From: Acidobacteriota bacterium
GTDB lineage: Bacteria; Acidobacteriota; Thermoanaerobaculia; Multivoradales; Multivoraceae
Assembly: GCA_029263415.1 (NCBI GenBank)
Contig: JAJCXN010000056.1
Location: forward strand, 248,001 to 312,000
Direction of reading: 5' to 3'
DNA length: 64,000 nt
The notes under the pieces were generated by a model. The model was not told the origin of the DNA. It did not search any database and worked only from the letters and a program-made list of their open reading frames with translations. Of this stretch, positions 701-61,977 are shown one piece after another; the first letter of the stretch is position 1; each line of letters begins with the position of its first letter. The position numbers and the translations under genes are program-made.

Positions 701-1990
701 CTACTCGTAGAGCAGGGCTCCCAACCGTCGAGAACGCCATGTCTTAGCGTCAGCAGCGACCACGGCTAGATGTTGGTCGAGCGGCTCTCCCCCGACCAGT
801 TGATCGCGGGCTACGGGGGTACCCAGCAGCCAGGTCAAGGCCTCGCCACCGCGACGCAGTTCGAACTCGGGGTGCCGGGCCAACCGACTGAGCAACGTGA
901 GACCCAGCGCGTACTGATCGATGCTGCCTGGGCCCGGCTCTAGGCGTAGGCCGTGACATTGCTCACCGAGGAACTTCGGAGCAGCAGCTGCCGCTGATGC
1001 CAAGGGCTTGAACTCGGTCGCGACTGCAACGACATTGAACTCAGCAAACAGCTGAATGAGGTCGGCACGCAGCGCTGGATCGAACCATGGTGCCCCGATC
1101 ATAAGGAAAGGTGCCTCGGTGCCGCGGCCTTCGGAGACATTGGTCGCCTCCAGCATGGCGGTGGCTGGATAAAGCAGAGCCGCGGATGGGCTGCGCAAGT
1201 TGGGCGACGGGTTGCGCCAATTGAGGCCGGTATCAGCCCAGGTTTGCGATCGACGCCAGCCTTCGAGCGGAATCACATACAGCCGACCGGCCGAAAGAAC
1301 GCTATATGAACGCGCCTCTTGGAAAGAGTGCATCGCCATTTCACCGACGGTCAAGCCCGAAACGAGTGTGCCCGGCGCCCGACTAACCAGGCTCAAGGCG
1401 ACCGAAGGATCACGCACAGGGCCCGAAACGTGCTGGCCTCCGAGTGGGTTCGGTCGATCGAGAACCACCACATCAAGGCCGGCGTCCAGTGCCGCTTGAA
1501 CGCTGAGCAACATGGTACTCGCGTAGGTATAGAAGCGAACCCCTGCGCCTTGCAAGTCGACAACCAGTACATCAAGGTCTGCGAGCTGCTCAGCGCTTGG
1601 GCTGGTGCGGGCACCGTAGAGGGAAACCACCTCAAGACCGCTATAAGCGTCCACTCCATCGACGACTGTTTCGCCGGCGGCAGCTGTTCCCCGCAAACCA
1701 TGCTCTGGAGAGAACAGCCGGCGAACGTCGTAGTCATGTCCAAGGAACACGTCAATCGCGTGCCGCCCAGTTCGGGTCATCGAAGCGCCGTGCACAACTA
1801 ACCCGATGCGTTGACTCTCAAACAACGGGTCTCCGTCGCGCTCGAGCACATCGAGGCCAGTCAGTACCACCGAAGGCTGTAGCGGCGCTGTGTCGGTCGA
1901 ATCAGGATTGGTGCGCTCGCCAGGGCCACATGAATAGAGGATCACCGCGCCAAGACAAACAACGATGACTCCGACCTGTCGTTTTCTCAT
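701..1990 (-). CDS. namZ: DUF1343 / NamZ-like exo-beta-N-acetylmuramidase lipoprotein
   Basis: This 429-residue protein starts with a lipoprotein signal whose lipobox is LYSC (lipidated Cys about residue 21). The rest matches the DUF1343 family along its length. It has the conserved SPEHGLRG block (about 94-101), LVVDLQGAGVRFYTY (about 142-156) and the LDRPNPLGG block. Characterised members (NamZ) remove terminal N-acetylmuramic acid from peptidoglycan chains, and the conserved acidic residues in these blocks are presumed catalytic. Its ATG overlaps the stop of the upstream M14 peptidase gene by 4 bp (ATGA), so the two are translationally coupled. Both could work on cell-wall fragments in the periplasm or at the outer membrane. 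The family assignment is firm; activity on MurNAc is inferred from it. Confidence 0.85.
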   Translation of the reverse strand: MRKRQVGVIVVCLGAVILYSCGPGERTNPDSTDTAPLQPSVVLTGLDVLERDGDPLFESQRIGLVVHGASMTRTGRHAIDVFLGHDYDVRRLFSPEHGLRGTAAAGETVVDGVDAYSGLEVVSLYGARTSPSAEQLADLDVLVVDLQGAGVRFYTYASTMLLSVQAALDAGLDVVVLDRPNPLGGQHVSGPVRDPSVALSLVSRAPGTLVSGLTVGEMAMHSFQEARSYSVLSAGRLYVIPLEGWRRSQTWADTGLNWRNPSPNLRSPSAALLYPATAMLEATNVSEGRGTEAPFLMIGAPWFDPALRADLIQLFAEFNVVAVATEFKPLASAAAAAPKFLGEQCHGLRLEPGPGSIDQYALGLTLLSRLARHPEFELRRGGEALTWLLGTPVARDQLVGGEPLDQHLAVVAADAKTWRSRRLGALLYE

Positions 1991-3738
1991 TCCCTATCGC
2001 CCGGTTGGGGGTCAACCTGCGAAACCTGCCGACCATCGAGCCAAACACCCTGAATTGCAAGCCGACCGACACGCGCTGCATGTAGAGGTGACTCGAGCGG
2101 GACTTGGCCTCGGTTCTCGGACCGATTCAGTACCAGGAAGGACGCTGCACCGAAACGACTGAGGTTACGCGCTTCTAACAGCGCCTTAGCAAGAGCCCCC
2201 TCATCAACCGGCTCGCCCAAGATCTCTTCTAAGGCGTCGCTGAAAACAGGAGAGGTCGTCCGTCCATCGTCGACACGATTCAACCCAGACTTTGCTACCA
2301 GCGTCGGAAAGGCTGCTTCTAAGACAATACGAACGGACGCGAGATCGATCCCTGCGAGCGCCCGAGCATGGTCGCTAGCGGCGCTCCAGTCCCGCGGCTT
2401 CACCCGCCACACCACTTCTCCTACACCCAGCGATGTCCATCGTCCAAGAGTCCAAGCGCTCAATAGGTCGTCGGCCCGATATCCGTCGATTCCGATTCGC
2501 AGCAACGGTAGAAGTATGGATGCCTCGGCGGCATCAGTACGGGCGGCAAACAGCAGCCTCGCGTCGCCGAGCTCTTGAATCGAGGATCCCTGATGTCCGA
2601 CCCCACGTTGACGGAGCGATACCAGCGACTCAGACTCATCCGGCGACGCGCAAGCGAGCGCGCGTTCGGCAACTTGCACGTCGAAGGCAACATCGCTCCG
2701 CGAGGCCCGTAGCTCCTTGCCATTGCTGCGCAGCACAGCGGCACCTCGCATGATCACGTCGACCAGACCATCGCTGCGATTAGATGGAATCGAGCGGTAG
2801 CCATCGACCGTGAAGTCGGCCGCATCGTTACGCGCCAGCTCATCCAAGGCGCGCACGAGGCCAGCGAAGGTGAGGGCGCTCAAGAAGGAAAAATGCTCAC
2901 CCTCCGGCATGCCTCCGCTCTCCATCAAGACGATCGGTGTACCCCAGGCGGTCAGATTGTCGCCGAACGATCTCTCACTCCAATCCTCGTCATAGCGGCC
3001 AACGCCACCAGGGATGACCGAGCGAAACGTGTCAGCTAAAGCCGCAGCCACGCGCATCGCGCGGCGCCGACCGTCGGTAACCGTCTGGGCGGCATCACCG
3101 GCAACTGCCAGCACAGATTGAGTCGCCAAGACATCGGTGTCGCCCACCAGCTTGCTGCGATCTTGATCGTGCAGGTTGAAGCCAAGAAACGGCTGGTGTT
3201 GATCACGCAGCTGTTTGAGCAAGCGTCCCTCGGGCGTTGCGAGCTGTCGCGCGTCTCGATTGATGTCAATCCCCTGCGCGCTGCGACGCGTGGCCCGCTC
3301 AGTGCCGTCCGGATTGAGCATCGGCACAATGAGCAAAGTGAACTCGTCGAGTATTCGACGCGCAACCGCGGCGCCCGACTCGCTCGACCGCAAAAGGTAG
3401 TTGACCAGGTCAAGCACCGCAGGTGTCGCCGAAGCCTCGTCCCCGTGCATCTGCGACCAAAGCAGAATCTTGCGCTCTCCCCTACCGAGCGTCAGCAGAC
3501 GGATAGATCGTCCTTCAAACGAGGAACCGACTTGTTCTACCTGCAACTGCTGGCCAAACTGCTCGGCGAGGAGGTCGATCGCCGCTTGCACATCCTGGTG
3601 CTTCAAGCAGGGTGGCGACACAGCGGTCACGCGGTGAGCCCGCCAAACGGCAAGAAGGTCTTCAGTTGTTGTCGGCGGAACGGTCGCGATCATGGCGGCG
3701 AGCAGGGTGGCCTTGAGGGCTACGGTGGTGAGAAGCAC
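1987..3738 (-). CDS. M14 family zinc carboxypeptidase, exported
   Basis: This 583-residue protein has an N-terminal signal sequence (hydrophobic residues about 4-20). An M14 metallopeptidase domain follows. Zinc ligands are visible as H98 and E101 in the motif MHGDEASATP and as H190 in NLHDQ. The substrate carboxylate-binding pair is N160-R161 in GIDINRD, and a likely catalytic Glu lies in LMESGG (about 270). The C-terminal 280 residues are outside the recognised catalytic domain and I do not identify them. The gene is the first of a two-gene operon with the NamZ-like lipoprotein. The pairing suggests processing of peptides, possibly muropeptides, outside the cytoplasm. The exact substrate cannot be read from the sequence. 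Confidence 0.85.
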   Translation of the reverse strand: MLLTTVALKATLLAAMIATVPPTTTEDLLAVWRAHRVTAVSPPCLKHQDVQAAIDLLAEQFGQQLQVEQVGSSFEGRSIRLLTLGRGERKILLWSQMHGDEASATPAVLDLVNYLLRSSESGAAVARRILDEFTLLIVPMLNPDGTERATRRSAQGIDINRDARQLATPEGRLLKQLRDQHQPFLGFNLHDQDRSKLVGDTDVLATQSVLAVAGDAAQTVTDGRRRAMRVAAALADTFRSVIPGGVGRYDEDWSERSFGDNLTAWGTPIVLMESGGMPEGEHFSFLSALTFAGLVRALDELARNDAADFTVDGYRSIPSNRSDGLVDVIMRGAAVLRSNGKELRASRSDVAFDVQVAERALACASPDESESLVSLRQRGVGHQGSSIQELGDARLLFAARTDAAEASILLPLLRIGIDGYRADDLLSAWTLGRWTSLGVGEVVWRVKPRDWSAASDHARALAGIDLASVRIVLEAAFPTLVAKSGLNRVDDGRTTSPVFSDALEEILGEPVDEGALAKALLEARNLSRFGAASFLVLNRSENRGQVPLESPLHAARVGRLAIQGVWLDGRQVSQVDPQPGDRE

Positions 3739-3821
3739 GTAGTGGCTCCGAAGTCAGGAGGGACTCGTGTGTCTATTGAACCCTAGCCGACGTCGAAGTG
3801 TTTCAACCTCTCAGAGTCCAA

Positions 3822-5217: not shown

Positions 5218-7515
5218 CTAGCCCTCCCCTGTGTGCTGGCCAAGTGGTTGCGAACCAGGAGGACCAGTGCGTGGAAAGAGGTCTTCCATGCGGTTCAGCG
5301 CAAGGACCTCCGCACGGATGCGATCGAAGGCAAGCGGCCCGAACCCGGCGTCGTTGCGCCATTGGAAGTCGCTACCAGGCAACGGCTCGGCGCACCGGCG
5401 CAAAATCCCTTGAACCTGCGGTGCGGTGAGGTCCGGTTGTTCACTCAGCATCTGCGCGGTGAGCCCGCACACCAACGGCGACGCCATCGACGTACCCGAC
5501 ATCGCAACCCACTGCTTGTCTGCGTCAAACCCACTGGCGGCGAGGATGTCGGTGCCGGCAGCGCACACTTCCGGTTTCTGACGGCCATCACGGGTCGGGC
5601 CCTGCGAGCTGGTGATACTGATCTTGGATCGCTCTTCGTCAAGATTTGCAACCGCGATCACGTTGTGGCCGCACGCTAAAGAACTCACCGAAGACTCGTC
5701 GACATTGGTCCCCGCAGAAAAGAATGAGGGCAACGCCCACAGCTCGCGTCGGCCAGCTCGGCCGAGAGGCCTAGGATCGTCGCGTTCGATCCAACCGTGG
5801 TAGCGACCGTCCCGTACTTCGAGTCCCTTGAGTCGCACGGTCCAGGTACCAGCCGCAACCCCGGTCGGGCGAGTGGCCGAAAAGAACGGGCTCAAAAAAA
5901 TCGCGATGCGATTAGCTCCATTCGAAACGGCAAAACGGTCGGAGTAGACACTCACGAACATCGAGCCGTTGATCATCTTGTTCTCAATGAACTGGCCTGG
6001 CCCGACCTCGGGCAGCCAGGTCCCATCTGGAGTCCGAATACGAACCGAGAACAGATCTTGGGCCTCATACCAAATCTCGAGCTCGTTCTCTGAGAAGTCG
6101 CCCTGGCCATCTCCCGGCACCACCCACTGCAAGTCGCGAGTCAGCCCCTCAGCTTGGATCCTGCCACCGGTGTGAATCCGGCCCACCATGTAGCCGAGAT
6201 CGCCGGGCTCGGTCGGGCCCTGCTGACCTGCATTGCCCGCGGCCACGGTCACCGATAGACCGGGCTCTGAGAGCACGTGATCCAGCCAACGATTAACACC
6301 GCTCGATCCGTCATGTGCGTGCCCGTTGGTGCCCAGCGAGATATTGATGGCCAAAGGCAAGTCTGCAAGCGCAACGTCCAACTCTTGCGCCCGACGCTCG
6401 CGCACCTTCAAGAGGTACTCCACTGCGTCGGCGATACGGGTCGAGTCATAGAACGAACGGCGGCGATCCTCATCCTCGGTTGGCAGATGAATCGACACGC
6501 CGACCAACTCGGCATGAGGACAAACCCCGCTCAAGCCACCGGCGATACTGGCCACGTGCGTCGCATGCGACTCGACCATCATTAGACTCTGAGGTTCGAT
6601 TTCGGTGGCGCGTAGCCCGACCCGTTGCGCGTCCTCGACCGCCTGAAGCATGTGCTCCTTGCGAATCTCCGAGCCGTAGCTGAAGCCCTCAGGCGGATCG
6701 CGAAAGACGCCCTGCTGATCCCAGATGGATGAAAAGCGCGTACGCCGGGTCGACTCGGAGCGCCAGAAGTCGCGGTGGGCAAAGTCGAAACCTCCAACGT
6801 CGATAATGCCGACGAGGACCTTGGGTTTGCGGCGGCGACGATGCTCCGGCCATCCGGCCCTAGCCCGCTGACGTTGTCCGTTTGCGCGAGCGGCCAAGTC
6901 TGCGTTGCTCTCGCCGGTGCGGAGCTGGCCGCGCAACGGTTGGTGAAAGGTGACCCGTTCACTCGCTTCGACTCCGGCAACTTCAGGGCACGCCAACACT
7001 CGGCTGACGTCATCCAGTGACAATTCCGCTGTCACCACGTCTTCGCGACGAAACACGTTTTTACCGTCTTGCTGCGCTTCGCTGAGGATCTTTGCAAGCG
7101 TCGGTTCAATCTCGACCTTGGCTGATCGTAAGCGGACGAAGACGTTGGTCCGAATTCCGGTCGCAAAGCTCGACAGCTGACCGCGTTCCTTCACCCGATC
7201 CAACGCCACGTCAACCTCGGCCGCCTCTGACACACTTTCAACTTGCGCATACCCGGTGCTGCGCGACTCCTCAGTGATCAGTACGAAGTCGCGCTCATCG
7301 TCGTCAGTGACCACCATGGTGGCATCGCGCACGCAGCGCAACCCGTTGACGGTGCGCGAGCCATTCGCCACCAGCCGCAACTTGGGTGAAGCACTGAGTT
7401 CGTTGTCGAGTCGCGGCGTCGGTGCCGATGTCTTATCTGCCTTGAGTTTCCCCTCGGCGCCTTGCTGAGCCTTTCCCTGCTTCTTGACCGGTTGGTTTGC
7501 CACGTATCCCTCCAT
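5218..7515 (-). CDS. Subtilisin-like (S8) serine protease without signal peptide
   Basis: This 765-residue subtilase shows a complete catalytic set: D239 in VGIIDVGG, H317 in ESHATHVASIAGG, oxyanion N428 in VAAGNAG and nucleophile S676 in SGTSMASP. Residues 1-40 are Lys/Ala/Gln-rich and hydrophilic, with no signal peptide, so a cytoplasmic location is likely. Residues about 120-190 end in CPEVAGVEASE, which resembles an I9-type inhibitory prodomain. Between N428 and S676 lies a long beta-rich insertion (about 440-600). The start may be the ATG at 7515, or a GTG at 7503 that has GGAGGG just upstream. It is the first gene of a two-gene operon with the MBL-fold protein. Which protein it cleaves, and what activates it, are unknown. 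Confidence 0.88.
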   Translation of the reverse strand: MEGYVANQPVKKQGKAQQGAEGKLKADKTSAPTPRLDNELSASPKLRLVANGSRTVNGLRCVRDATMVVTDDDERDFVLITEESRSTGYAQVESVSEAAEVDVALDRVKERGQLSSFATGIRTNVFVRLRSAKVEIEPTLAKILSEAQQDGKNVFRREDVVTAELSLDDVSRVLACPEVAGVEASERVTFHQPLRGQLRTGESNADLAARANGQRQRARAGWPEHRRRRKPKVLVGIIDVGGFDFAHRDFWRSESTRRTRFSSIWDQQGVFRDPPEGFSYGSEIRKEHMLQAVEDAQRVGLRATEIEPQSLMMVESHATHVASIAGGLSGVCPHAELVGVSIHLPTEDEDRRRSFYDSTRIADAVEYLLKVRERRAQELDVALADLPLAINISLGTNGHAHDGSSGVNRWLDHVLSEPGLSVTVAAGNAGQQGPTEPGDLGYMVGRIHTGGRIQAEGLTRDLQWVVPGDGQGDFSENELEIWYEAQDLFSVRIRTPDGTWLPEVGPGQFIENKMINGSMFVSVYSDRFAVSNGANRIAIFLSPFFSATRPTGVAAGTWTVRLKGLEVRDGRYHGWIERDDPRPLGRAGRRELWALPSFFSAGTNVDESSVSSLACGHNVIAVANLDEERSKISITSSQGPTRDGRQKPEVCAAGTDILAASGFDADKQWVAMSGTSMASPLVCGLTAQMLSEQPDLTAPQVQGILRRCAEPLPGSDFQWRNDAGFGPLAFDRIRAEVLALNRMEDLFPRTGPPGSQPLGQHTGEG

Positions 7516-7643
7516 CGGGCGTTCTGATGTCGCGCGGGTAACTGTTGTGATTCGAGAACAGCTCTATCAACGATCTATTGTCTAGTAACGCACATTCTGA
7601 CTGTTTGAGGACGCTCGGCTCGAATGGTGTCTAGCCAGCAAAC

Positions 7644-7671
7644 GCAAAAAGCCGGCGACATGGTCGCCGGC
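7644..7671 (-). terminator. Rho-independent terminator of the Oar-like receptor gene
   Basis: A perfect 9-bp stem (GCCGGCGAC / GTCGCCGGC) with a 3-nt loop at 7651-7671 is followed, on the minus strand, by five T residues (7650-7646). It lies about 140 bp past the stop of the TonB receptor gene and before the protease gene, so it should separate the two transcripts. Confidence 0.8.
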
Positions 7672-7702
7672 CGCTCTCGGTCGTCTTTGGCCGTCGGTGG
7701 AA

Positions 7703-7722
7703 CCAGTGATACGTATCACTGG
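7703..7722. repeat. Perfect 20-bp palindrome
   Basis: CCAGTGATACGTATCACTGG is its own reverse complement over all 20 bases. It lies in the 3' region between the receptor stop (7814) and its terminator (7651). The length and lack of a loop fit a dimeric protein-binding site better than an RNA hairpin, but the position downstream of a gene is unusual for an operator. The rest of 7516-7813 holds no gene that I can support; the A/T-rich part near 7570-7600 is the likely promoter region of the protease operon. Confidence 0.5.
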
Positions 7723-7813
7723 CCTCACCAACATCACTTGCTAGCTCCAAGCGCCTCCGGCGCGTCGCAAGGTGAGCTGACCTCAGCGGACGGTCAGAAA
7801 CCGTCTCGATTGA

Positions 7814-10741
7814 CTAGAAGAGGAACTTGGCTGCTAACTGCACTCGCCTCGGGTTATAGAACGAGCGTGGGTTTCCGAAGTTCGCACTGTTGACCTTATT
7901 CTGGATGTTGTACCCAGTCTGATTGTCAAACAGGTTGAACGCATCCACTCTCAGCTGCACTGTGTACTTATCCACAAACACAAAATTGTGCGTGTAGTTC
8001 AAGTCCAACTGATAGTGATCACTCGTGGTTCGACTACCCGCCGGTTCGGCGAAACGACTGGTATCGCTGGAGGAACCGGTGAGCGATCGGTAAACCTCGA
8101 CGTCCCAAGCCTCCCAAGGTTGGCCCGACTGGAAGATCGCATAGAACCCAGCACTGGCGTTCCAGGGCAGCTGATGTGATCCGTACACCTTGAGTTGATG
8201 ACGACGGTCGCCCCTCAAGTCTCCAGTGCGGAAATCCCACAGCTGCCGACCGGCACCATCTGCAATGAAGGACGAACCAATGAAGGTCGCCGCATCATTG
8301 CTGGTCGTGGTGTTGTCCTGATCGAAGTTGCCATAGTAGTGACTCCACACGTACGAGCCCTTGATCGCGGTGCCGCCCTTGCGCCAGTCCGCTTCCAAAC
8401 CAGCTTCCCAGTACTTGGTGTAGGCACCATCGAGCTCAGCAATGACGTAGGAAGAACCACCCACCTCAGCGCGATAGTCGCCGAGTTCAGGAATGTAGTC
8501 CGTGGTTGGGATACCTGCTGGCGGATTGAACCGCGAACGGGCATTGTTGTTGGTGTCTTCCCAGTAGTTGTGCCCATAGCGATAACGCACGTGAGCCTTC
8601 ATCGTCCACTCACTGTTCAGCTGTTGCGATGACCCAATGATGTACTCCTCGACACTACGCGGAGTCATGTCAGGCTGGAAGAACTTGCCCGACGAGGACC
8701 CGACCGGATCGGTGCCGATCAGGTTGCCTGCGGCATCAAAGTAGCCTCGAATCGAGCGGCGCAGGTTGCGGGCCCAAGACGCTGCACGGGGCAACGAGCC
8801 GGCTGCGGGGAAATACTTCGCGTAGCTCCCGTAGACCGTGTTGGAGCCGCCGTAGTTCCAGACTGCACCAAGCCGCGGTGAAAGCGTGTCGCTCCAGTCG
8901 ATCTCGTACATCTCGTATTTGTTGCCGGGGGCTAGCTCGAAGCCAGACACATTACTCGAGTTGGCACGTAGGCCTTCCCCAAACAAAGTGTCGTTGCTCA
9001 CCATCAAACCGATGTTGAACGACCAGTTCCCGATGCTGAAGTTGTCGTTCAACTCGATGTTCTGCGTCTCAAACTCGGAGTTAATGGCACCCTGACCAGA
9101 CGACGAGAGCAACCCCTGCTGCTCAAAACGCCCTTCGAAAAAGACCGCTTGCCCGTTGAAGGTTGTGCGGCCGCCGGGAACGGTGATTACACCCCAGCCG
9201 TTCGACAGTCGGGAGAGTTCTTCCTCTTCGCTCGCAAACTGGTAGCCGAAGTGCAGATCGTGCACCACGTTGCCGGTTTCGAGCTGATAGTCGTAACCGC
9301 CTTCGTAGCCTTCGCGAAAGAAGTTCTGATCGTTGATGGTGCTGGCACCACCCACCAAACCGCCGCCTTCGCGAACCCCGTTCCGAACAAAGCCGTAACG
9401 ATCAATCAAGGGTTGAACGAACGCGTTGTAAGCATCTTCGCCAGCCCGCAGCGTGGGCACGCTAAACAGGCCTTGGGTGTCGAGGGCGCCCACATTAAGC
9501 CCAACCGAGCCATCGTCAGCGATCTGAAGACCGAAGCGGTTGTCAGGGCCTGCGGAGGTCTCGTTGTCGAAGTCTTGAAAGCGAAAGCTGGCAAAGCTTC
9601 GATCATTGATGACCCACGACACCTCGCCGATGGCGATGCCAAGTGTGGATGTTGAACCACTCGTTGCAGTTCCCGCCGTAGCGTCGCCGCCAACGCCAGA
9701 ACCGACGGTCTCACGATCGGAATCGCGATAGCTCAGATTGAAGAGCAGATTATCGGCCGGGGTGATCGTCAACTTGCCGTAGAACTCGTCCCGTTCCGAG
9801 TCGAAGTCCGGCACATCGCCATAGAGGTTCGCGCGATTGTCGCGGGACAGGGTCGGACGATAGTAGGAAGTGTAGAAGGAAACGGTGTCTCGAACCAACG
9901 GGCCACCGAGGGCGAACGTTGCCCAATCCTGGTCGTTCTCGAAGGTTGAATCACTACCGTTGTCCAGATCACCGGTGGTGTCGTCGTTTTGAATCTGGTA
10001 GCTGACCAGACCATGGAAGGCGTTCGTTCCCGACTTGGAAATCGTGTTGATACTGAAGCCGCCGGAGCGATTGAAGTCGACCGCCTTAGCGCCACCCTTG
10101 ACGATCGTCACCTGGTCAATGTCGTGAGAAGATGGGTCTGCTGACAACACACCGAACAGGGGCAAACCGACGTTGACACCGTCGAACTGATAGACGTTGT
10201 CCTGACCACTGCCGCCAGCGCTCGGGCCGCGAACACTGTCCTCGCTGTACTGGACGCCCGGAATCAGCTTGATGACATCGCGATACTCCTGACCGACCGG
10301 CAAGCGATCGATGGTCTCATTATCGAGTGAGACCTTAATCTCGGTCGAAGTGGTATCGATCAACGCTGCCGAGGCAATGACCGTCACCTCTTCTGAAACT
10401 GCTTCAGCACTCAGGGCCACGTCGACCTGCGAGTCGACCTGCAGTAAGACGGTGAGCGAGCGTTTGGCCGTCGCCATACCGTCTAGGGAGTACGAGATCT
10501 CGTAGGCACCTGGAGGTAACTGAACCAGGTTGTAAGCACCGCGTGCGTTGGTCGTGCTGGTCCGCGACCTTGGCAAGGTGTCGCCGCTCGCAGTCACCAT
10601 CACCCCAGGAAGCGCTTCTCCACTACTCGAGGACACCGTCCCCGAGACCGACCCAAACGACTGCGCCGCCGCCGGCGTGCACAGTACAAATACCAGCAAA
10701 CAGCAAACCGCCGCTGCACCAATTGCTCCAATCCGTCTCAT
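7814..10741 (-). CDS. TonB-dependent receptor, Oar-like, with carboxypeptidase-regulatory-like domain
   Basis: This is a large outer-membrane receptor of about 975 residues. The start is taken at the ATG at 10741 because GGGGAGG stands 7 bp upstream; an in-frame ATG at 10762 lacks such a site. A signal peptide ends at about TPAAAQ. Next comes a carboxypeptidase-regulatory-like domain (GSVSGTVSSSSGEALPGVMV...), then a plug domain (LPVGQEYRDVIKLIPGVQYSEDSVRGPSAGG split over two blocks). A long beta-barrel ends in an aromatic residue (VQLAAKFLF), as expected for outer-membrane insertion. Receptors of this shape import large or complex substrates using TonB energy. The ligand is unknown. It is transcribed alone and closed by the terminator at 7644-7671. 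Confidence 0.88.
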   Translation of the reverse strand: MRRIGAIGAAAVCCLLVFVLCTPAAAQSFGSVSGTVSSSSGEALPGVMVTASGDTLPRSRTSTTNARGAYNLVQLPPGAYEISYSLDGMATAKRSLTVLLQVDSQVDVALSAEAVSEEVTVIASAALIDTTSTEIKVSLDNETIDRLPVGQEYRDVIKLIPGVQYSEDSVRGPSAGGSGQDNVYQFDGVNVGLPLFGVLSADPSSHDIDQVTIVKGGAKAVDFNRSGGFSINTISKSGTNAFHGLVSYQIQNDDTTGDLDNGSDSTFENDQDWATFALGGPLVRDTVSFYTSYYRPTLSRDNRANLYGDVPDFDSERDEFYGKLTITPADNLLFNLSYRDSDRETVGSGVGGDATAGTATSGSTSTLGIAIGEVSWVINDRSFASFRFQDFDNETSAGPDNRFGLQIADDGSVGLNVGALDTQGLFSVPTLRAGEDAYNAFVQPLIDRYGFVRNGVREGGGLVGGASTINDQNFFREGYEGGYDYQLETGNVVHDLHFGYQFASEEEELSRLSNGWGVITVPGGRTTFNGQAVFFEGRFEQQGLLSSSGQGAINSEFETQNIELNDNFSIGNWSFNIGLMVSNDTLFGEGLRANSSNVSGFELAPGNKYEMYEIDWSDTLSPRLGAVWNYGGSNTVYGSYAKYFPAAGSLPRAASWARNLRRSIRGYFDAAGNLIGTDPVGSSSGKFFQPDMTPRSVEEYIIGSSQQLNSEWTMKAHVRYRYGHNYWEDTNNNARSRFNPPAGIPTTDYIPELGDYRAEVGGSSYVIAELDGAYTKYWEAGLEADWRKGGTAIKGSYVWSHYYGNFDQDNTTTSNDAATFIGSSFIADGAGRQLWDFRTGDLRGDRRHQLKVYGSHQLPWNASAGFYAIFQSGQPWEAWDVEVYRSLTGSSSDTSRFAEPAGSRTTSDHYQLDLNYTHNFVFVDKYTVQLRVDAFNLFDNQTGYNIQNKVNSANFGNPRSFYNPRRVQLAAKFLF

Positions 10742-56909: not shown

Positions 56910-57834
56910 CCATTTCATGGTCGTTCATAGTCATTCGCAGCCGTCACTCACCGGATCCCGCATGATGACTCGCGGTTCGTCACACTGGTTCGACGAATTC
57001 CCTCATCGGAGAGCCCAACACTGCGGATCTCAGAATCGGAGAAGGCCGCGGTCGCCACACTGCCTTTGGTCGGGTGAACCCTTTCTGTCGGCGTACGGAG
57101 TCTGAGCGTGTCAAGTCTCGCTTCGTTCTTCGGCCCCTAATAAGCGACGCTCGATACGCGGCGATAGTGAGCGCACGGAGTAGCTCGTCGCGACCTTCGA
57201 GGAGCCTGACCCAAACCGGCACTACGGTGTCTAAGCGTCGGCTTCGCGTGGGCCGAACAGAGCGGAGTCGTTCACTCGCGCTCGAGCAGTCCTGACGGTA
57301 CTTAAGCACACGGACCGCGCCGTTGCCTATTGCCGATGAGCTCCACACACATCTGCTCGGGGTCAGAACCGACGGGCGGGTCGAAGGTATCAGCAACAAA
57401 AATTCGCATCGCTGCGCGGAGGGCCTACGGGTTTCATTCAGCTGGAGCACTCATGGCGATGGTCAGCCTCATCGCTGGTGGCGTCAAGACAAAGCCCGAA
57501 CTCCCCAAACCCTCGCTCTGTTGACCCACAGATAGGTCTCAAGATCCAAACTTTCGGCATGGCTGGCATCGCAGCATCAACACAAACCGAGACTTAAGGA
57601 CGATCCAATTTCCCGCGCTGACTACATCCCGGAAAGACGGAGTATCCGCAGAATGCACGGCACCTTCATCTACCACGTTGCGGCCCTGCTCCTCCTGTAA
57701 AGCTCCGCCCTCAGAAATCGCATGCTATGCTTCTGTAAACGATTTGTTTCTACCTTGACCCTGACCGTGTTCGACTGCGCCGTCTCTTGACAGGCCAGGT
57801 TTTAGGCATTGTCCTCTCTTGCAAAGGAGACCGT
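56910..57834. other. Gene-poor junction with possible gene remnant
   Basis: About 925 bp without a gene I can support. On the minus strand 56931-57003 reads VIMRDPVSDG then a stop, which resembles the C-terminus TMRDPVSGN at the right edge of the window. An in-frame stop (57003) and a frame change near 56990 break it. Further up, an open minus-strand stretch to about 57450 has biased Arg/Ser/Leu composition and looks like decayed coding sequence rather than a gene. The region marks the border between the thiol block and the peroxidase-P450 cluster. TTGACA at 57787-57792 is a possible -35 box without a good -10. Confidence 0.5.
57823..57829 (+). promoter_or_regulatory. Ribosome-binding site fixing the TTG start of the barrel-protein gene
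   Basis: AAAGGAG, 5 bp before TTG at 57835. It supports this start over an in-frame TTG at 57787. Confidence 0.7.
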
Positions 57835-59100
57835 TTGGCAACTGTTAATCAATTTCCATTGAGTATCATCGCCGAGATCAAAACGGGTTCGAAGGAAGCA
57901 CTCGAACACAAACTGAATGCCATCGGCAAGAATCCGGCGGGCAACCCGGATATCCCCTTCAGCGACGTACCTACTCTCCACTTCTGCAGCTTCGTGATCA
58001 TCGATCAGGAGGCAGACGAATACCCGACATATTTGGTTTTCGAGAGCAATCACGACGGGGACCTCGAGCCTCATCTCGACCAGTTGATGGCCATCGGCAA
58101 AGCGGGCTTCGACTCGCTCTTCGCTCATTGCGTCGGTTACGCACCGGGTTCTAGCGCCGACCAGATCAAGGCCTACATGCGCCAGCATTCCTTTCCTTCA
58201 GCGGCATTCTATGTCGGCTGCCGCGGACAGACTGTGCAGGACATCCAGAACGCCATCGCTGTGCGTGAGGAGATTGAGAACTATCTCGACGCCCAGCAGG
58301 CGAAGAGCAATCTCGGTGAACTTTCGCCCCAGGCGATTCTGGAAAGAATCCAGGCTCACCTCGGCAAGCCCGACGTGGTATCACCGAAGGTCTCATCCGA
58401 GACGTTGTCGCAGTTGAAATCGAAGGCCATGCGCAACATCGTCCTCATAGCCCTCATCGGCATACCGATGCTGATCCTCACTCTGCCGTTACTTCTGTTG
58501 TGGTTGGTGGTGTTCCGTTTGACCGAAATCCGTAGCAACCATCAGCCACCACTACCACCTCTGCCGGTGGATCCGCGCCCGTACGAAAACCCTGACATCT
58601 ACACCATCAGCCACCTAACCACAATGGTTGCCATCAAGCCGGGCGCCGTCCGATTGTTTACTTTGAAGGGTGTCCTGGCGATTACCAGCCTGCTGGCCAA
58701 GACGGTGTCGATCTATGGAAACTTGCTCGGTATTCCAACGATTCACTTCGCCAGATGGATCATGATGGACGGCGATAAACGACTGCTCTTCTTTAGCAAC
58801 TACGATGGCAGTTGGGCCAGCTACTTAGGGGATTTCGTCGACAAAGCGAAGTACGGACTAACGGGTATTTGGGGCAATACGACCCGCTTCCCCTCTTCCA
58901 ACTGGTTGGTGCTAGGAGGCGCGGCGAAGATCATTCCGTTCAAGGAGTGGAGCCGCGAGCACAATCTTTACGCCCCGGTCTTCTACCGGGCCTATCCGTC
59001 CGCCACCATCGCCAACCTGGTGAACGATATCGAGATCCGCGACAACGTCGGCCGGTCGATGAGCGCATCGGAAGCGGCCGCTTTTCTCCAGAGATTCTGA
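57835..59100 (+). CDS. Membrane-anchored duplicated protein, partner of the peroxidase-P450 fusion
   Basis: This 421-residue protein has no family I can name. It shows an internal duplication. Residues about 47-103 (TLHF...ESNHDGDLEPHLDQL...FDSLFAHCVGYAP) and about 302-355 (TIHF...FSNYDGSWASYLGDF...GLTGIWGNTTRFP) share order and motifs, such as a HF strand and an F-x-SN-x-DG strand. Such half units resemble the ferredoxin-like folds of Dyp/EthD-type proteins. A strong membrane helix (about 201-227) lies between them, with a Pro-rich spacer after it. The stop is 3 bp before the peroxidase-P450 gene, so both belong to one transcript. The TTG start is supported by AAAGGAG. It may hold or supply substrate to the enzyme at the membrane. 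Confidence 0.7.
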   Translation: MATVNQFPLSIIAEIKTGSKEALEHKLNAIGKNPAGNPDIPFSDVPTLHFCSFVIIDQEADEYPTYLVFESNHDGDLEPHLDQLMAIGKAGFDSLFAHCVGYAPGSSADQIKAYMRQHSFPSAAFYVGCRGQTVQDIQNAIAVREEIENYLDAQQAKSNLGELSPQAILERIQAHLGKPDVVSPKVSSETLSQLKSKAMRNIVLIALIGIPMLILTLPLLLLWLVVFRLTEIRSNHQPPLPPLPVDPRPYENPDIYTISHLTTMVAIKPGAVRLFTLKGVLAITSLLAKTVSIYGNLLGIPTIHFARWIMMDGDKRLLFFSNYDGSWASYLGDFVDKAKYGLTGIWGNTTRFPSSNWLVLGGAAKIIPFKEWSREHNLYAPVFYRAYPSATIANLVNDIEIRDNVGRSMSASEAAAFLQRF

Positions 59101-59103
59101 GCA

Positions 59104-61977
59104 ATGCTTGATTTTGAAGACATTCAGGGCTACATCATTTCCGGATACGGCCACAAGCTCTACTCGCGCTTCCTGTTCTGCGAGATCGTGGATGTTCCCA
59201 AGGCTCAAAGCTGGATGCGCAAGGTCATCCCAGAGGTCACGACCGCCCGCCAGCGCCAAACTGGAGAACCCAAGCCCGAAGTAGGGGTGAACCTTACTCT
59301 CACCGCCGGCGGGTTGCGCAGGCTCGGCCTTGACCGCAACTGCCTGGGTAGTTTCCCAAGAGAGTTCAGCGGCGGAGCCGAGTACCACGGCGAAGCGAAC
59401 CCAATGGCAACTGGTCCCAGTTCCCAGCTACTCGGCGACTATGGTGACAGTGCTCCACAGCACTGGGAGTTCGGCGGTCCCAACACTCCGCCGGTGCACC
59501 TGATGCTGCTGCTTTTCTCCAGCACTCAAGAGGCGCTCGAGGAGATGACCGAGCGAATCGGACAACCCGATTCGGACAATGGATTGAGGGAAGTCTTCCG
59601 CCAGGACTCGAATCGGCTGGGCGGTCGCGAAGCATTCGGTTTTCACGACGGTATTTCCCAGCCGGGTATCGCCGGCTCGCACATCGCTGCTAAGCCTGGC
59701 CAGGATTTGGTCAAGGCCGGCGAGTTCATCATGGGCTACACCAACGAGTACGACATGGTTTCGCCGCCGCCGACGGTCGATGCTACTGATGATCCAGAGG
59801 GGCTCTTGCCGGAGGTGACGAATAGCTCAAGCCATCACGACCTCGGCCGCAACGGTACCTATCTATCGATTCGTAAGCTGTATCAGGATGTCGACAGCTT
59901 CTGGGATTTCTGTGCCGAGAGCACCAAGAACGCTGACGGAACGCCCAACGACGAACGCAAGACTTGGCTCGCCTCGAAGATGATCGGTCGTTGGCCAAGC
60001 GGCGCCCCGATGGCACTGACCAGCGACAAGGACGACCCGGCCCTGGGTCAGGACCCGAATCGCAACAACGATTTCCTCTATTCAGACGATCCTAAGGGGC
60101 TCAAATGCCCGATGGGTTCACACCTAAGGCGAGGAAATCCTCGAGACGACCTACCACCGGATAGCCCGAAGAAGTCAGTGGAGGTGACCAAGCGTCACCG
60201 CATCATTCGTCGAGGTCGACCCTTCAACAACGGTCAAGGCAAGGAACAGGGTTTGATGTTTATGGCGATCAACGCCGACATTCAACGTCAGTTCCAGTTC
60301 GTCCAACAAACCTGGATCAACAGTCCAAAATTCGGCCATATGTACGACAACAAGGACCCGATCCTCTCTGATCCGGAACTTCTGGACCCAATCCCTGGCG
60401 GCTCTGGAAAGAGCGTTATGACCATTCCATCCGAACCGGTGCGTCTCCGCGTCCACGGTCTCAAACGATTCGTCATGGTGAAGGGTGGCGGTTACTACTT
60501 TATGCCGAGTATGCGAGCCCTCAACTTTCTGGCGAGCTTCAAGGCAGACACAGCATCAGACGACAACAGAGCGTCCAGAGAAGCCGCGACAGCCAGCGGA
60601 GGATCCTCGACGGAGGCTGCCTTCGATGCTGATACCAACGAGACTGCAGGGAGATCAAATCGAATGTCACTACTCAAGAACGCCTGGCAAGATGTCCTGT
60701 CGGTGGGAGGAAAACTCGAGGACGAACTGCACGACGACTTCCTCAACCTAAGGGAAAAGCTCGATACTCGGCTGGAACACTTGATGGGGAATCCTGGCCT
60801 GGTGAGACCCCTGTTCAAGTTCTTGCGCCATCACGAACCTATCTTCGCTACCAAGAAAGTCGGAGCGGTATCTCTATACGACGACACCTTGGAGGTTTTG
60901 GGCAACTCCGAGTGTTTCAGCGTGGTTGACATTTACGCCAAGAAGATGCGCCTGACGACGGGTGACTTCGTCCTTGGCATGGACGACACCGAGCGCTACC
61001 AGCGCTGGATTGGCTGGATGCGTCAGGCAGTCCATCCTTCGGACATCGATCGGATCCGTCAGTTGGGCCAAGACGTAGCCGAGAAGGAGGTGGCGGCCAC
61101 CGCACCGACGGGCCGGATCGATTTTGTCGGTCAGCTTGGGCGCCATATCCCAACTCAAGTGGTCGGCGACTACTATGGTGCCCCGGGGCCGGACGAAGCC
61201 ACCAATCAAGGATGGATGCGGGCGATATTCCGCGAGATCTTCCTCAACCTAGGAAACGATCCCAACTTCGAGAAGGAAGCGGTCAACGCGAGCAAGCAAC
61301 TGAACGCGTACCTAGACGGCGTCGTCGCTCAGCGCAAGGAGCAATTGGCCGCTGGAGAAGAGATACCGGACGACTTCCTATGCCGCTTGGTCAAGCTCCA
61401 AACCAACGACTCCGAGCTCACTGACGAAATCATCCGGGAGCTGGTGGGTGGCACTATCGTCGGCACTACCCCCACCAACAACAAAGCCACTACCCAGGCT
61501 CTTGAGCAACTCATCGAGCGTCCTGATGCACTGGCTATGGCGCAAGAAGCCGCCCGCAACGATGACGACGACCTGCTGACTCGCTACATCTTCGAAGCTC
61601 AACGCTTCAATCCGCAGAATCCGATGCTGCTGCGTCATTGCGTCAAAGATTGTGTCGTGGCAGCCGGTACGGAGCGGGAGACAGAGTTCAAGGCTGGCTG
61701 TTTGGTGGTCGTTGGAACCGAGTCCGCCATGTTGGACGAACGCAAGTTCACCAATGCCGAAGAGTTCCTGGTCACCCGGGACCTCAAAGACTACATCCTC
61801 TTCGGGTACGGCCAGCACACCTGCTTCGGCCATCTCATTGCCACAGCGCTTTGGCCGGCGATGCTCAAGCCGTTGCTGCGGCGAAAGAACCTGGCACGGG
61901 CCCACGGTGACGACGGCAAGATCAAGTACGACGGCGCCTTCCCAGACCGTTGGATACTTACTTTCGACGCAGACTGA
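59104..61977 (+). CDS. Dyp-type peroxidase-cytochrome P450 fusion
   Basis: One continuous 957-residue frame joins two haem enzymes. Residues about 1-475 are a Dyp-type peroxidase: distal motif GFHDGISQPG (D182), proximal His in CPMGSH (H340), distal Arg in IIRRGRPF and the C-terminal EQGLMFMAINADIQRQF. Residues about 480-525 are a polar linker. Residues about 575-957 are a P450: I-helix VGGTIVGTTPTNNKA (about 781-795), K-helix ExxR as EAQR (831-834), and haem ligand Cys907 in FGYGQHTCFG. The I-helix lacks the usual acid-alcohol pair. No signal peptide is visible. The first domain could make or use peroxides, and the second could isomerise them, as in fungal Ppo enzymes. That function is inferred. 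The partner gene ends 3 bp upstream. Confidence 0.9.
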   Translation: MLDFEDIQGYIISGYGHKLYSRFLFCEIVDVPKAQSWMRKVIPEVTTARQRQTGEPKPEVGVNLTLTAGGLRRLGLDRNCLGSFPREFSGGAEYHGEANPMATGPSSQLLGDYGDSAPQHWEFGGPNTPPVHLMLLLFSSTQEALEEMTERIGQPDSDNGLREVFRQDSNRLGGREAFGFHDGISQPGIAGSHIAAKPGQDLVKAGEFIMGYTNEYDMVSPPPTVDATDDPEGLLPEVTNSSSHHDLGRNGTYLSIRKLYQDVDSFWDFCAESTKNADGTPNDERKTWLASKMIGRWPSGAPMALTSDKDDPALGQDPNRNNDFLYSDDPKGLKCPMGSHLRRGNPRDDLPPDSPKKSVEVTKRHRIIRRGRPFNNGQGKEQGLMFMAINADIQRQFQFVQQTWINSPKFGHMYDNKDPILSDPELLDPIPGGSGKSVMTIPSEPVRLRVHGLKRFVMVKGGGYYFMPSMRALNFLASFKADTASDDNRASREAATASGGSSTEAAFDADTNETAGRSNRMSLLKNAWQDVLSVGGKLEDELHDDFLNLREKLDTRLEHLMGNPGLVRPLFKFLRHHEPIFATKKVGAVSLYDDTLEVLGNSECFSVVDIYAKKMRLTTGDFVLGMDDTERYQRWIGWMRQAVHPSDIDRIRQLGQDVAEKEVAATAPTGRIDFVGQLGRHIPTQVVGDYYGAPGPDEATNQGWMRAIFREIFLNLGNDPNFEKEAVNASKQLNAYLDGVVAQRKEQLAAGEEIPDDFLCRLVKLQTNDSELTDEIIRELVGGTIVGTTPTNNKATTQALEQLIERPDALAMAQEAARNDDDDLLTRYIFEAQRFNPQNPMLLRHCVKDCVVAAGTERETEFKAGCLVVVGTESAMLDERKFTNAEEFLVTRDLKDYILFGYGQHTCFGHLIATALWPAMLKPLLRRKNLARAHGDDGKIKYDGAFPDRWILTFDAD

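Follow-up and report, generated by a model that had tools for sequence, protein, structure and literature searches.

Within the window, the whole 64,000-nucleotide stretch of acidobacterial DNA analysed here, a single open reading frame of 957 residues (59104..61977, + strand) naturally fuses a Dyp-type peroxidase to a cytochrome P450, haem enzymes that are unrelated to each other, and this fusion represents a real family present in more than one phylum. It is one form of a wider module, not found described, that combines a Dyp, a P450 and a protein with a membrane-like segment, here called X. The X/Dyp/P450 set has the look of a two-step oxidation system that has escaped notice, with lipids as its probable substrates. 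We assign a probability of about 0.5 to the reading that it is a membrane-tethered two-haem oxidase in which the P450 would be driven by peroxide oxygen and lipid would be the most likely substrate.

The fusion frame starts with an ATG at 59104, three bases past the stop codon of X, and continues with no internal stops to its own stop codon at 61975-61977. The original prediction placed a Dyp set and a P450 set in this one frame; both domains proved complete, with profile matches in one chain, and the motifs were correctly located (GFHDG with D182, H340, RRG, EAQR, and C907 in FGYGQHTCFG). A full-length counterpart with 78% identity, in one 963-aa frame, was found in SZUA-115, a MAG titled Acidobacteria that belongs to another family of the same order. 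Loci L001, L003 and L037 of SZUA-115 are all one contig of 23,187 bases, so they provide one independent confirmation rather than three. Both domains are under strong purifying selection: measured against SZUA-115 by a counting method, with dS nearly saturated, dN/dS is 0.135/1.28 in the Dyp portion and 0.091/1.46 in the P450 portion. An assembly join or frameshift of two genes near 60540-60660, which had been named as the outcome that would undo the prediction, was not borne out: SZUA-115, in a different family, shares the unbroken frame, indels in the linker come in threes and selection acts on both sides of it. Two-gene versions do exist in other genomes and nothing else was found in favour of an artefact, which we consider ruled out barring an identical error in both assemblies. 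The fusion is rare and patchy: of the 72 genomes examined from the order and the 149 from the class, none but the window genome and SZUA-115 carries it.

The Dyp-type peroxidase domain comprises residues 1-481 (59104..60546, +), as assigned from profiles, solved relatives and an alignment of nine Dyp rows (A3). PF20628 (Dyp_perox_C) matched the fusion above its cut-off (E 3e-5), and two further profiles scored just under theirs: PF21105 (DyP_N) with 24.7 bits against 27.5, and TIGR01413 with 99.3 bits (E 2.5e-28) against 100.5. PF04261, which models another part or class of Dyp, had no match in the window genome. The best solved relatives are 8re3/8re2 (E 5.6e-59, residues 2-480), and the 8re2 sequence agrees, over the extent aligned, with the Deinococcus radiodurans DyP encoded in L093. 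The distal acid D182 of GFHDG (59647..59649, +) and the proximal haem ligand H340 (60121..60123, +) are invariant in A3, as are R366 and R369 of the distal arginine motif HRIIRRG (R366/R369/R370; R366 to R370 at 60199..60213, +). The window Dyp thus has the GXXDG distal Asp, the proximal His, the distal Arg and the whole-domain profile match. The Asp, His and Arg columns were retained in 30/30 Dyps compared.

The P450 domain spans residues 565-957 (60796..61974, +) and was assigned by PF00067 (E 1.7e-17, over cut-off, from about residue 565), by phmmer comparison with solved bacterial P450s, where it matches ordinary class I enzymes, and by its place in a clade tree. In alignments it has the FxxGxxxCxG Cys-loop with the thiolate haem ligand C907 (61822..61824, +) and the ExxR motif E831-A-Q-R834 (61594..61605, +). 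The acid-alcohol pair of the I-helix, which is typical of O2-activating P450s and not of all P450s, is replaced in the window by P790-T791 (61471..61476, +) where Asp/Glu-Thr is canonical; the role of this pair has been reviewed (PMC9112060). Losing the acid should make it harder to activate O2 with electrons supplied from outside; this is consistent with, but no proof of, the use of peroxide or hydroperoxide. The same Pro is present in the P450s of Skermanella and of all three P450-X-Dyp chains described below. It first appeared, in alignment A2, to be a signature of every Dyp-linked P450, and this idea was contradicted by the P450s of L065 and L066, which are Dyp-linked too and keep Asp-Thr in a canonical GTVDTT helix, so that reductase-driven chemistry is possible for them. 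P450 relatives linked to An_peroxidase or RoxA-like genes keep Glu-Thr. In CYP152 peroxygenases Arg-Pro replaces the acid-alcohol pair; the window has Pro-Thr and does not belong to that family, whose Arg is named in PMC9112060. No ferredoxin or reductase genes were noted in the P450 clusters read.

Between the two domains lies a linker (residues 482-564; 60547..60795, +) whose frame is kept relative to SZUA-115. Its first part is fast-evolving (residues 481-530: 32% identity, dN 0.67), with indels only in threes and no stops. Here AGGGAG is followed after 10 bases by an in-frame ATG for M521 (60648..60666, +), a possible vestigial P450 start or internal initiation site, and the SZUA-115 linker has AAGGAG, 6 bases and an ATG at the Met aligned with M521. 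This site may be read as the former start of a P450 gene that used to stand alone, and some free P450 may still be made from it. That the cell produces both the fusion and free P450 from M521, or mainly separate proteins after cleavage of the linker, seems improbable to us: a Shine-Dalgarno-like sequence and a conserved Met521 within a poorly conserved linker in both genomes speak for it, but the site may be a mere relic, and no interdomain stop is present in either genome, so ribosomes that complete the Dyp must make the fusion.

Directly upstream of the fusion lies X (57787..59100, +; about 424-437 aa, with the true start probably near 57835). The original prediction found the fusion and missed this gene. 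A homologue with 80% identity occupies the same position in SZUA-115, and X homologues adjoin or are fused to Dyps in other genomes. X consists of two copies of one domain of about 200 residues (repeat 1 against repeat 2: hhalign probability 99.5, E 1e-22), separated by a hydrophobic, membrane-like segment at residues 212-248 of the 437-aa frame (58420..58530, +; Kyte-Doolittle peak 2.77). The segment is present in other double-domain X proteins and absent from the single-domain X proteins checked, the small homologues having one domain and no hydrophobic segment. X matched no Pfam or NCBIfam family and no solved (PDB) relative, and an AlphaFold model based on an alignment of the window and L001 sequences reached a pLDDT of 36 and a pTM of 0.20, too low to be of use. 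Kinship of X with the Dyp barrel was also considered, but hhalign gave no sign of it, and haem binding by X is therefore not claimed. In a sample of the phylum X was found in 15/396 genomes, which is a lower bound because the first filter of the search scores few candidates per genome.

The same modules recur in other ARRANGEMENTS, as separate X, Dyp and P450 genes, as X next to a Dyp-P450 fusion, or as a single P450-X-Dyp chain. On plasmids of Skermanella rosea and S. mucosa the three are consecutive overlapping genes. L065 and L066, each from another genome of the window's phylum, have X, Dyp and P450 followed by a Lipase_3 gene. X with a Dyp-P450 fusion is the arrangement of the window genome and SZUA-115. 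All three modules are joined in one chain in Novosphingobium aromaticivorans (pNL2, SARO_RS19865, 1443 aa), Pararhizobium qamdonense (1423 aa) and Sulfitobacter pontiacus (1620 aa); the Sulfitobacter chain (L031:4700-9562) has extra stretches inside its Dyp, between the GXXDG and proximal His motifs. Alphaproteobacteria were sampled via plasmids. As the original prediction asked of a real family, chains that contain both Dyp and P450 occur in more than one phylum. The proteins themselves are already in public databases under single-domain names, the P450-X-Dyp chains as 'Dyp-type peroxidase domain-containing protein' or 'cytochrome P450'.

X-Dyp pairs without a P450 are commoner, being fused in Rhizobium leguminosarum (976 aa) and separate in Granulicella. 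X and Dyp accompanied by a catalase-like gene were found in Agrobacterium, Ketogulonicigenium, Microvirga, Sphingomonas, Acinetobacter, Rhodococcus, Deinococcus and several genomes of the window's phylum. This conserved trio, in varying gene order, occurs in several phyla (L035, L063, L064, L071, L089-L094) and includes the D. radiodurans DyP locus. We found no description of the set, whose small X protein is without a family name. Near the catalase-like X-Dyp loci are 3-hydroxyacyl-CoA dehydrogenase genes in Acinetobacter and Deinococcus and a thioesterase gene in Sphingomonas. The catalase-like partner was considered as a coral-type allene oxide synthase and this was rejected, its profile matching nothing but ordinary catalases apart from a weak hit to the mini-catalase 3e4w. 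In L083 a weakly matching RoxA-like dihaem c-type protein (1478-3757) lies upstream of an X-Dyp pair (6046-8867), and that genome carries a P450 of the same clade as the fusion on another contig.

A P450 tree separated the fusion-type P450 domains from other P450s of the order as a 100/100 clade. The window and SZUA-115 P450s grouped with those of the L065/L066 operons at moderate support (87/93), where two partnerless P450s also fall, and the P450s of the P450-X-Dyp fusions grouped with the Skermanella operon (95/95). Because these groupings differ, at least two independent fusions, with opposite domain order, must be assumed for Dyp-P450 and P450-X-Dyp. On a Dyp tree built by a quick method the P450-linked Dyps require two or more label changes; the two enzymes have thus come together, or separated, more than once. 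Some branches are long and bootstrapping had not converged, which leaves the fine branching order uncertain.

The surroundings of the fusion and of its P450 relatives point to lipids. A Lipase_3 gene (PF01764; 62792..63841, +) lies 815 bases past the fusion, and in L065 and L066 a homologue comes immediately after the P450 gene, so that Lipase_3 accompanies the Dyp-P450 pair in three loci. Since the 6.9 Mb window genome has only two Lipase_3 genes, the second not near these modules, we estimate the chance of one being placed so near the fusion at roughly one in a thousand. Close as it is, the window lipase stands outside the operon of the fusion, since a gene for an ABA4-like membrane protein (PF14108; 62047..62523, -), likely a neighbour only, intervenes on the other strand. 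A similar ABA4-like gene, cut by the contig end, seems by eye to follow the SZUA-115 fusion (L001). In Rhizobium etli, R. gallicum and Sinorhizobium medicae, P450s of the same clade adjoin genes for COX-like An_peroxidases (PF03098, E about 1e-44). In Methylobacterium, and in Bradyrhizobium, where an oleate hydratase is close by, they lie downstream of RoxA-like dihaem genes (PF21419). The COX-like peroxidase family includes fatty-acid dioxygenases (PMC13049297), and the wider RoxA-like family holds one in the 10S-DOX of Pseudomonas aeruginosa (PMC4496055).

In the mechanism that we favour, X, translated just upstream, would hold the fusion at the membrane, and the neighbouring lipase would free an acyl substrate. 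The Dyp and P450 haems would then catalyse linked peroxide-based steps on a lipid or a peroxide derived from lipid: one haem would form or activate a (hydro)peroxide and the P450 would spend it to rearrange or hydroxylate the substrate, with no need of a partner for electron transfer. What has been observed is the fusion, the intact ligands in both domains, the selection on both, the repeated X/Dyp/P450 association, the lipase link and the replaced I-helix acid; the membrane tethering, the lipid substrate, a P450 driven by peroxide and the sequence of the steps are what we propose. Against it, the acid loss is not general, many bacterial P450s take electrons from ferredoxins encoded elsewhere, the lipase lies outside the window operon and Dyps normally consume H2O2. 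The Dyp could make peroxide, activate the substrate by radical chemistry or only control H2O2. Sequential, Ppo-like action of the two haems on one substrate, which the original prediction put forward, is a hypothesis that the gene context motivates well. A full tandem oxylipin synthase, built independently of the fungal Ppo enzymes, with the Dyp haem oxygenating a lipid to a hydroperoxide or equivalent, the fused P450 rearranging it and X at the membrane, is possible, and we advance it tentatively. Its weakest step is the Dyp itself making the hydroperoxide; we know of no Dyp that dioxygenates fatty acids.

Dyps are consumers of H2O2 and act on aromatics. The Dyp might burn H2O2 or lipid hydroperoxides while a peroxide-using P450 performs the productive oxidation, the fusion serving to protect the P450 or limit peroxide and not to hand on a substrate. 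The consumption of H2O2, the many P450-less X-Dyp pairs beside a catalase-like gene and the window P450 without its I-helix acid agree with such housekeeping. We nevertheless regard it as rather unlikely, because it leaves unexplained both the lipase link and the pairing of the same P450 clade with COX-like and RoxA-like proteins, and because the nearest solved Dyp, that of D. radiodurans, is inactive at pH 7.5 (PMC10820274), which speaks against a simple peroxidase role. Alternatively, the fusion could merely fix the stoichiometry of two ordinary oxidases in one catabolic or secondary pathway, a ferredoxin-driven P450 and a Dyp working on a different, perhaps aromatic, intermediate. The window domain resembles ordinary class I enzymes, two Dyp-linked relatives retain the acid-alcohol pair and aromatics are Dyp substrates. 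This account is unlikely in our view, given that no redox-partner gene was noted in the clusters read, that the neighbours are lipase and fatty-acid genes rather than aromatic genes, and that fusion took place twice independently, with the domains in opposite order, which hints at a tighter coupling.

So far as can be judged, the fusion operates in the manner of a known kind of enzyme, the haem peroxidase-P450 tandem. Fungal Ppo or linoleate DOX-CYP enzymes (LDS, EAS, AOS) likewise have an N-terminal haem peroxidase-type domain and a C-terminal thiolate P450, with its Cys intact, in one chain, and their P450s are self-sufficient hydroperoxide isomerases (PMC13049297). The window protein differs in being bacterial, in having X alongside and in its N-terminal domain, a Dyp of unrelated fold rather than an An_peroxidase/COX-like domain; PF03098 had no match in the fusion, which is therefore not a Ppo family member. 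The comparison with Ppo made in the original prediction is strengthened by the same-clade P450s beside COX-like genes and by Lipase_3 in three loci. That prediction also knew of no described enzyme joining Dyp to P450, and we too found none among 5.39 million open papers, where the described Dyp fusion is Dyp-PFL of fungi and bacteria, in which a type B Dyp is fused to a pyruvate formate-lyase-like domain (PMC5041501). The D. radiodurans DyP locus shares Dyp and X homologues with the window but has a catalase-like gene in place of the P450, a single-domain X and Met for Gly in the GXXDG of DrDyP.

Which substrates Dyp peroxidases use physiologically is an acknowledged open problem (PMC10820274); a chain of Dyp and P450 that arose in evolution at least twice and occurs near a lipase makes it accessible to direct assay. 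If the Ppo-like reading is true, the peroxidase-P450 tandem would have a second origin, unrelated to the first, these Dyps would take part in the chemistry of lipid mediators or lipid damage, and the fusion would point to unannotated genes (X, the catalase-like partner) in the well-known D. radiodurans and N. aromaticivorans.

Two further kinds of gene pair bear the same P450. The An_peroxidase-P450 pairs of R. etli, R. gallicum and S. medicae share the 100/100 P450 clade and an adjacent haem peroxidase with the fusion, and differ from it in being two genes, in their COX-like partner and in their canonical Glu-Thr I-helix. On the Rhizobium and Sinorhizobium plasmids (L028, L029, L034) the COX-like gene stands right behind the P450, a two-gene bacterial counterpart of fungal Ppo. 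In the Bradyrhizobium and Methylobacterium pairs the P450 clade is again the same and the partner is a RoxA-like c-type dihaem protein. At L088:7635-8468 (-) one frame begins as a RoxA-like gene and ends as a same-clade P450; it looks like a deletion remnant of such a pair.
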